Positions 16,424 through 17,353 of a stretch of DNA of 64,000 bases are shown here, one piece after another. Position 1 is the stretch's first letter. Each line of letters starts with the position of its first letter. The notes beneath the pieces were generated by a model, which was not told where the DNA came from, searched no databases, and was given only the letters and a program-made list of their open reading frames with translations. Source of the stretch: Haloferax sp. Q22. GTDB lineage: Archaea; Halobacteriota; Halobacteria; Halobacteriales; Haloferacaceae. The DNA is taken from contig NZ_LOEP01000005.1 of assembly GCF_001482285.1 (NCBI RefSeq), forward strand, positions 186,001 to 250,000, written 5' to 3'. The position numbers and the translations under genes are program-made.

Positions 16424-16516
16424 GGGGCCGCGACCCTCTGTTTCGGGGGGTTCGCCGCCAGAACCTGCCCAAACCAAGATATAGTTGAATCAATAACATT
16501 TGTGCAGGGACTATCG

Positions 16517-16657
16517 ATGTCAGACGAGTATTTTCGTTTAACTCTGGGGGAACAGACAGACGTTGACGAGGTGGTGCTCGGGTTTCGAAAGGGAGGTGAG
16601 TACTACGAGCTTGCGGTGTTAGAACCGCCGCTACAAGCAGAGATACGAAAGGAGTGA
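16517..16657 (+). CDS. Small ORF (46 aa), unknown, in AT-rich island
   Basis: An open frame starting MSDEYFRLTLGEQTDVDEV and ending EPPLQAEIRKE, with codon choices (tta, ata, cga, aga-like context) less GC-rich than the neighbours. An ATATAG element at 16479-16484 sits about 33 nt upstream, close enough for a short-leader transcript. I know no family for it. The two-beta-strand-like pattern (VVLGFRKGGEYYELAVLE) is compatible with a small folded protein. It converges with the endonuclease-like gene (6 nt between the two stops). That tight packing supports a real gene, but proof is lacking. Confidence 0.45.
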   Translation: MSDEYFRLTLGEQTDVDEVVLGFRKGGEYYELAVLEPPLQAEIRKE

Positions 16658-16663
16658 CACAGC

Positions 16664-17098
16664 CTACGCCCGGACGCTGTTAACCCAGCTGTCGAGTTCG
16701 AACTCATCAGCCCAATTGACGTTTGGAGACTTCTTGCGTGCTTGTTCAACACGGAGACCCATGGATGTTTTCGGCGCTTCGTTAATTGGTACGATATACG
16801 ATTCCTCAAGCTCAGGAGCGTAAACCGCGAAGATGTCTATCTGCCCGTCATATCCCTCTTTTTTGACTCGTCGAGTTAGGGTACCTGAGCTACGAGTTTC
16901 AAACTGAACTCGCCCATTCGTCAACCGGCCAGTCTTCACTTGAACACGATAGAATGTACCAGCGATTTCGACGACGTAATCGTACCGTTCGTTGTCACCA
17001 AATGGCTCTAATACGGTGACTCCACGGCGAGTGAATTCGAAGAGAATCGCTGCCTCACTACACTGTCCCCGTTGCTTTGGGTGACTAATCTCGTCCAT
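16664..17098 (-). CDS. PD-(D/E)XK endonuclease-like protein
   Basis: A 144-residue protein resembling the PD-(D/E)XK family that includes group I intron-encoded endonucleases (Pfam PDDEXK_5). After MDEISHPKQRGQCSEAAILF come PFGDNERYDYVVE (acidic D40) and FYRVQVKTGR. There the Q-x-K variant (Q53, K55) replaces the usual D/E-x-K, as is common in this group. Residues 90-120 (GQIDIFAVYAPELEESYIVPINEA) match the family's C-terminal strands. The ATG at 17098 gives the normal length; an earlier frame would run into the tRNA. It lies 148 nt beyond the 3' end of tRNA-Lys on the same strand. Its GC content is visibly lower than the flanks, suggesting acquisition by transfer. Actual cleavage activity is unproven. 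Confidence 0.72.
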   Translation of the reverse strand: MDEISHPKQRGQCSEAAILFEFTRRGVTVLEPFGDNERYDYVVEIAGTFYRVQVKTGRLTNGRVQFETRSSGTLTRRVKKEGYDGQIDIFAVYAPELEESYIVPINEAPKTSMGLRVEQARKKSPNVNWADEFELDSWVNSVRA

Positions 17099-17246
17099 AG
17101 CTCCACAAGGGTTCTGTTTGGAAAGAACGGCAGGTACAGAGTGAAAGTAGTCAACGCGATTCGAAAGACAGCCCGGTGATGCTGTCGCTCGCTGACGTAG
17201 AAGTTGGAAGAGCAGCGTCACTCCGCACGAAGTTCGTCGCAGAAAC

Positions 17247-17353
17247 GGGCTGGGAGGGACTTGAACCCCCGACCGTCTGGTGTCTTCCGAAACCACGCGA
17301 CTCGCGTAGTCCCGCTAAAAGCCAGACGCTCTGCCTAACTGAGCTACCAGCCC
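17247..17353 (-). tRNA. tRNA-Lys (UUU) with an intron
   Basis: On the minus strand the exons form a complete 73-nt cloverleaf: 7-bp acceptor (GGGCTGG with CCAGCCC), D arm GCTC/GAGC, anticodon stem TCTGG/CCAGA with loop CTTTTAA (anticodon TTT), and T arm with TTCAAGT loop. CCA is not encoded. The anticodon loop is interrupted between positions 37 and 38 by a 34-nt intron at 17282-17315. The junctions form an ideal bulge-helix-bulge. Central helix CTTT/GAAG is flanked by 3-nt bulges TA|G and AC|A (bar marks cleavage). The intron itself closes as CGGGAC/GTTTCG and ACGCG/CGCGT helices. Archaeal splicing endonuclease should therefore remove it. Confidence 0.93.

Follow-up and report, generated by a model that had tools for sequence, protein, structure and literature searches.

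A free-standing PDDEXK_5 endonuclease gene beside an intron-bearing tRNA-Lys gene in Haloferax: a candidate for collaborative homing at anticodon DNA

Introduction

The origin and spread of archaeal tRNA introns is an old question, and a review has called for the moment of insertion to be captured in snapshots (PMC4033280). A locus in Haloferax sp. Q22 raises this question in a particular form. An AT-rich patch holding an endonuclease-like gene lies against the 3' end of an intron-containing tRNA-Lys gene, for which the first-pass annotation offered two accounts: an endonuclease that cuts intronless tRNA-Lys genes and so spreads the intron together with itself, or a simple integration scar. 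We asked what the locus and its relatives say about these accounts. Throughout, the window is the whole stretch analysed, 64,000 nucleotides of contig NZ_LOEP01000005.1 (positions 186,001 to 250,000).

Results

The tRNA-Lys gene contains a BHB intron

That the tRNA carries an intron is borne out by ARAGORN in intron mode (-i; L001 c2080-2187, equivalent to window 17246-17353), which places a tRNA-Lys(UUU) gene at 17246..17353 on the minus strand, and by an Rfam tRNA match (RF00005) of 57.4 bits. The 5' exon (17316-17353) and the 3' exon (17246-17281), both on the minus strand, flank a 34-nt intron (17282..17315, minus strand; GCGGGACTACGCGAGTCGCGTGGTTTCGGAAGAC) at the canonical position 37/38. 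The intron is delimited by its fold, by compensatory changes and by comparison with the intronless tRNA-Lys(UUU) genes of nine genomes of the same genus, to which the spliced exons are identical. The precursor folds (-58.6 kcal/mol, z -5.5) into a bulge-helix-bulge (BHB) at the exon–intron junction, as in archaeal tRNA introns, and comparison of 28 distinct tRNA-Lys(UUU) introns revealed compensatory change at 8 predicted pairs. A group I intron was ruled out, the intron being 34 nt long and the Rfam search returning no group I match. The identical intron sequence occurs in four Haloferax species, and a pattern search of genome G000 found no intronless tRNA-Lys(UUU) copy. In intronless tRNA-Lys genes the anticodon arm forms pseudo-palindromic DNA (CGTCTGG-CTTTTAA-CCAGACG), which the intron splits.

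The neighbouring gene encodes a relative of I-Ssp6803I

A 144-residue PDDEXK_5 protein, a putative free-standing homing endonuclease, is encoded at 16664..17098 on the minus strand. Its start lies 147 bp beyond the tRNA-Lys 3' end, the intervening spacer (17099..17245, minus strand) being defined from the sequence and from comparison of related loci. The suggested kinship with intron-encoded PD-(D/E)XK endonucleases is well supported. The protein matches Pfam PF11645 (PDDEXK_5) with an E-value of 3e-36 and 124.8 bits, against a curated cut-off of 26.1, and matches PDB 2ost (I-Ssp6803I) in sequence with an E-value of 7e-9. Foldseek searches with its AF2 model returned the four 2ost chains as best matches (best E-value 9e-10, TM 0.71-0.74), making I-Ssp6803I the sole convincing solved relative in both sequence and fold. 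Among 17 aligned proteins of the Lys and Asn clades, E15, D40 and Q53 are invariant and K55 nearly so; these four are the catalytic residues expected of PD-(D/E)XK enzymes. We regard the 144-residue protein as a probable homing endonuclease of the I-Ssp6803I type (PDDEXK_5) that would recognize tRNA-Lys(UUU) anticodon-arm DNA.

About 820 bp separate the tRNA-Lys 3' end from fixX. The patch there departs in composition from fixABCX and the M20 gene, both as annotated: its GC content is 0.50-0.54 against approximately 0.70 in the surroundings, and GC3 of the endonuclease gene is 0.50 against 0.90 for the M20 gene and 0.85 for fixX. The second open reading frame of the patch proved to be a different matter. 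This 46-residue frame (16517..16657, plus strand), convergent with the endonuclease gene, had been counted as part of the island, but homologues occur in nine Haloferax genomes lacking the endonuclease (G014, G003, G010, G006, G007, G002, G004, G008 and G009). Its presence in relatives that lack the endonuclease, and in ones that lack the intron, marks it as a resident gene, and we rejected it as a member of a mobile unit. A small frame of this kind (46-56 residues, low GC3) is kept beside tRNA-Lys in most Haloferax.

The patch does not resemble an integrase-borne insertion

An AT-rich patch on the 3' side of a tRNA could be the remnant of an integrase-borne element whose att site was the tRNA 3' end. 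A duplicated tRNA 3' end had been proposed as a sign of such an event, but none was found towards fixX or elsewhere in the window when up to three mismatches were allowed; the 3' end is present as a single copy, without the repeat that bounds integrase-type tRNA islands. Nor does the patch contain an integrase-sized open reading frame.

In some sister species the tRNA-Lys 3' end is indeed repeated, over about 19-26 bp, at 80-115 bp downstream (L046 of G014, L045 of G001, L048 of G013, L053 of G008, L056 of G003 and L057 of G009), which speaks for the scar. An insert of approximately 115 bp bounded by this repeat is common to G003, G014 and G001 and absent from G000 and G011. Since it occurs in G003, which has neither endonuclease nor intron, and is missing from G000 and G011, and since the window has the 3' end only once, the insert is an event separate from the arrival of the endonuclease. 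The Haloferax repeat, found with and without intron or endonuclease, resembles an older integration or duplication scar. In other genomes, family members lie ahead of the tRNA or within it, which also sits poorly with integration at the 3' end. An integration scar at the window locus is thus largely refuted, and we give it scarcely any weight.

Three states of one tRNA-Lys locus within Haloferax

The intron is present in six of 15 Haloferax genomes (G000, G001, G005, G011, G013 and G014) and absent from the other nine. Four of the six have the endonuclease at the tRNA-Lys locus (G000; G001, which by matching contigs is Haloferax sulfurifontis; G011, likewise Haloferax marisrubri; and G013), and no endonuclease was found there in an intronless genome. 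The remaining two are intron-bearing G014, where no family member was found anywhere in the assembly, and G005, whose contig ends approximately 120 bp past the tRNA, placing the endonuclease site beyond the readable sequence.

A single genus thereby shows the empty, intron-only and intron-plus-endonuclease states of one gene. In the locus alignment these are represented by G003 (empty), G014 (intron only) and G001, G000 and G011 (intron and endonuclease), with the insertions lying within an otherwise shared locus. Close relatives hence differ in presence or absence at a site that is empty in one of them, as expected of homing endonucleases. When intron presence and absence are mapped onto a tree of the adjacent M20 protein, four changes are required within Haloferax. 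In one genome of the genus, G008 (L254), two tandem tRNA-Asn genes contain different introns.

At tRNA-Lys the endonuclease is found only with the intron

Pattern searches across 391 Halobacteria genomes detected a short intron in tRNA-Lys(UUU) in 35 and an intronless gene in 238, the others falling outside the pattern. An open endonuclease frame lies within approximately 1.5 kb of the tRNA in 11 of the 35 (G000, G001, G011, G013, G197, G249, G289, G295, G361, G385 and G395), G249 being Halorientalis salina by 100% identity. In G289 (L238) the conserved K55 of the protein is replaced by N, possibly a sign of a decaying copy. G163 has a frameshifted copy at its intron-bearing tRNA-Lys, and in G044 the endonuclease gene is located inside a tRNA-Lys intron of 451 nt, the ends of which form the same BHB when folded with the body of the open reading frame left out. 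Besides the 11 loci and that of G044, which together make 12 among the 391 genomes, Halorussus salinisoli has a further endonuclease at an intron-bearing tRNA-Lys.

All 13 endonucleases found at tRNA-Lys, along with the G163 remnant, accompany an intron; the 39 intronless tRNA-Lys loci examined (30 across Halobacteria and the nine Haloferax) yielded no endonuclease. Comparison of 13/36 intron-bearing with 0/39 intronless loci gives a Fisher value of 2e-5, which is indicative because relatives are not independent. The idea that intron and endonuclease are co-mobile is supported in part, in that every endonuclease found at tRNA-Lys comes with the intron; strict two-way co-occurrence fails, because about 23 of 36 intron-bearing genomes have the intron without the endonuclease. 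In most genomes the gene is 3' of the tRNA, as in the window and in other genera where a free-standing endonuclease adjoins an intron-bearing gene, but it is on the 5' side in G197, G295 and G163. On its M20 side the locus keeps its gene order from family to family.

Isotype-specific endonuclease lineages across Halobacteria

PF11645 is present in 192 of the 391 Halobacteria genomes, and a phylum-wide sample gave no match above the cut-off outside Halobacteria. Among 123 distinct loci with the stronger PF11645 matches, 121 have a tRNA within the fetched stretch, and at 115 the tRNA is upstream on the same strand at a median distance of 214 bp; this tRNA is Asp at 90 loci, Pro at 16, Lys at 5 and Asn at 4. 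The remaining loci comprise Lys cases (inside or downstream), Asn, Ser and Gln, and the two without a tRNA. Linkage on this scale is negligible by chance (a rough expectation of 0.6%). Isotype labels change seven times on the protein tree, where the minimum is six and the mean after shuffling 31.9, and the Lys proteins form a single monophyletic group (SH-aLRT 83).

The link to tRNAs is a property of the core family. About five divergent members scoring below approximately 77 bits (the five examined were L291, L292, L293, L295 and L296) lie away from tRNAs, and the notion that all PDDEXK_5 proteins are tied to tRNAs was therefore rejected. Plasmid proteins similar to these five are annotated as group I intron-associated.

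Relatives also occur in viruses. In the haloarchaeal virus HSTV-4 a PDDEXK_5 relative directly follows a viral tRNA-Asn (L275:2393-2929), and in Escherichia phage 241 one lies within a tRNA-Met/Tyr/Ile cluster (L277:1586-3184); that of Haloarcula tailed virus 2 has no tRNA nearby. Viruses are possible carriers of the endonuclease.

Anticodon-stem alleles accompany the endonuclease at tRNA-Asp

In tRNA-Asn(GUU), a short intron is present in 28 of 155 genomes. Of ten Asn-linked endonucleases examined, seven lie by a tRNA with an intron. The other three differ among themselves: in G067 the endonuclease is a pseudogene, in G060 the tRNA has a different anticodon stem, and in G061 the gene is intact and the exception unexplained. 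The association with the intron-bearing allele, seen without exception at tRNA-Lys, is hence not strict in the Asn clade, and a rule requiring an intron in every intron-linked clade was rejected.

In the Asp and Pro clades family members persist beside intronless tRNAs. At tRNA-Asp the endonuclease is accompanied instead by particular anticodon-stem alleles, namely CGACC/GGTCG in 30 of 31 loci of clades A and C, the exception having an in-frame stop, and CAACC/GGTTG in 57 of 59 loci of clade B. That pseudogene aside, the allele switches with endonuclease subtype in all 12 genera holding both (loci among L008-L168), while endonuclease-free genomes have either allele. This coupling in sequence suggests joint movement of tRNA-Asp allele and endonuclease, with the stem change as a possible protection of its carrier.

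Discussion

The homing idea is strengthened by the comparison of relatives, although in a modified form: a free-standing endonuclease from which an intron would shield the tRNA gene describes these sequences better than an intron-encoded system does. Our favoured reading, which we consider probable, is collaborative homing at anticodon DNA by an endonuclease that would target the anticodon arm, with a protective intron as its partner. The endonuclease, acting as a multimer as in other family members, would cut intronless tRNA-Lys alleles. Repair of the break from an intron-bearing copy would then bring in the intron and the neighbouring endonuclease gene together. The split in the pseudo-palindromic arm would render the carrier allele uncuttable, and the host splicing endonuclease would remove the intron from the RNA so that tRNA function is kept. 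After fixation the endonuclease could decay or be lost, leaving the intron behind; genomes with the intron only would be such post-loss states, and the homing cycle allows them to be common. For the relatives at tRNA-Asp, a symmetric anticodon-stem change may act in place of the intron. Weighing against this reading are the genomes with an intron and no endonuclease, the three Asn-clade endonucleases beside intronless tRNA-Asn, the divergent members away from tRNAs and the N at K55 in G289.

The closest rival shares the cutting step and differs solely in denying joint transfer. It holds that the endonuclease homes alone beside tRNA-Lys and that the intron gives the host resistance, having been gained or kept because it blocks cutting, so that selection brings the two together. 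Introns without the endonuclease do outnumber those with it, the family does persist in the Asp and Pro clades where the tRNA has no intron, and protective introns have been proposed against viral integration (PMC4090602). We nevertheless hold it to be appreciably less probable, although close to the best explanation: the endonuclease gene inside the G044 intron ties the two physically, and one and the same intron is found in four Haloferax species. Descent from an ancestor that already had both at this locus, followed by parallel losses and perhaps by inactivation or domestication of the endonuclease, seems improbable. It would accommodate the monophyly of the Lys clade, and the synteny seen between families on the M20 side means that such descent may account for some of the co-occurrence. 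The three different positions of the endonuclease relative to the tRNA (3', 5' and inside the intron) argue against it as the full account; the patchy states with four changes in one genus, the GC3 of 0.50 against 0.90 and the conserved catalytic residues also argue against it. A role in defence or regulation, with the nuclease retained by chance beside tRNA promoters or terminators and not engaged in homing, is very improbable given the isotype-specific clades, the link to introns and anticodon-stem alleles, and the precedent of I-Ssp6803I.

A wider reading is, in our judgement, evenly balanced. In it, anticodon-targeting homing endonucleases in isotype-specific lineages across haloarchaea would be a main force in the gain and spread of archaeal tRNA introns and of anticodon-stem alleles. 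At tRNA-Lys and tRNA-Asn a BHB intron would protect the carrier, at tRNA-Asp a symmetric stem change that preserves function, and allele and endonuclease would be copied together into unprotected genomes and viruses. Such enzymes may help to explain the presence of tRNA introns, and the tRNA-Asp polymorphism linked to the type of neighbouring endonuclease suggests that tRNA sequence evolves under pressure from selfish nucleases. Haloferax is a genetically tractable group.

Comparison with known systems

Searches of the open-licence literature brought up no description of haloarchaeal PDDEXK_5 endonucleases linked to tRNAs. The sequences do not point to a new class, as both the nuclease family and the mode of homing are known; what appears to be new is that they are linked with BHB introns of archaea and with tRNA targets that differ by isotype. 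The nearest precedent is I-Ssp6803I (PDB 2ost), from a group I intron in Synechocystis tRNA-fMet, which shares the Pfam family, the fold and a tRNA gene as host. Its specificity for the anticodon region is given in the title of a paper that PMC1995217 cites, and PD-(D/E)XK homing enzymes multimerize and favour symmetric sites (PMC3943268). The haloarchaeal system differs in that its introns are of the BHB type and not group I, its endonuclease genes are outside the intron (G044 excepted), and its tRNAs are Lys, Asn, Asp, Pro and Ser and not fMet.

Collaborative homing was defined for F-CphI, which is likewise a free-standing endonuclease beside an intron-bearing gene, psbA of cyanophage S-PM2, where the intron is expected to block self-cutting (PMC6083498). 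F-CphI has another nuclease fold, a protein-coding host gene, a group I intron and a phage rather than an archaeal chromosome as its setting, and its cleavage has been shown whereas the haloarchaeal system is known from sequence. SegB of phages T4/T6 (PMC13096335), which homes without introns, resembles the Asp and Pro clades in being free-standing, tRNA-linked and able to cut within tRNA genes, but it is a phage enzyme without an intron partner and belongs to another nuclease family, as judged from the reported active-site mutations Y17A/G19A. LAGLIDADG endonucleases of archaeal rRNA introns are also homing endonucleases tied to archaeal introns, yet differ in their rRNA hosts, their fold and their location inside the intron. 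Finally, the mobile-element model of tRNA-intron gain in Caldiarchaeum (PMC3293823) and the intron-as-protection idea address the same question, the origin or persistence of archaeal tRNA introns; both are built on integrases and lack a homing endonuclease.
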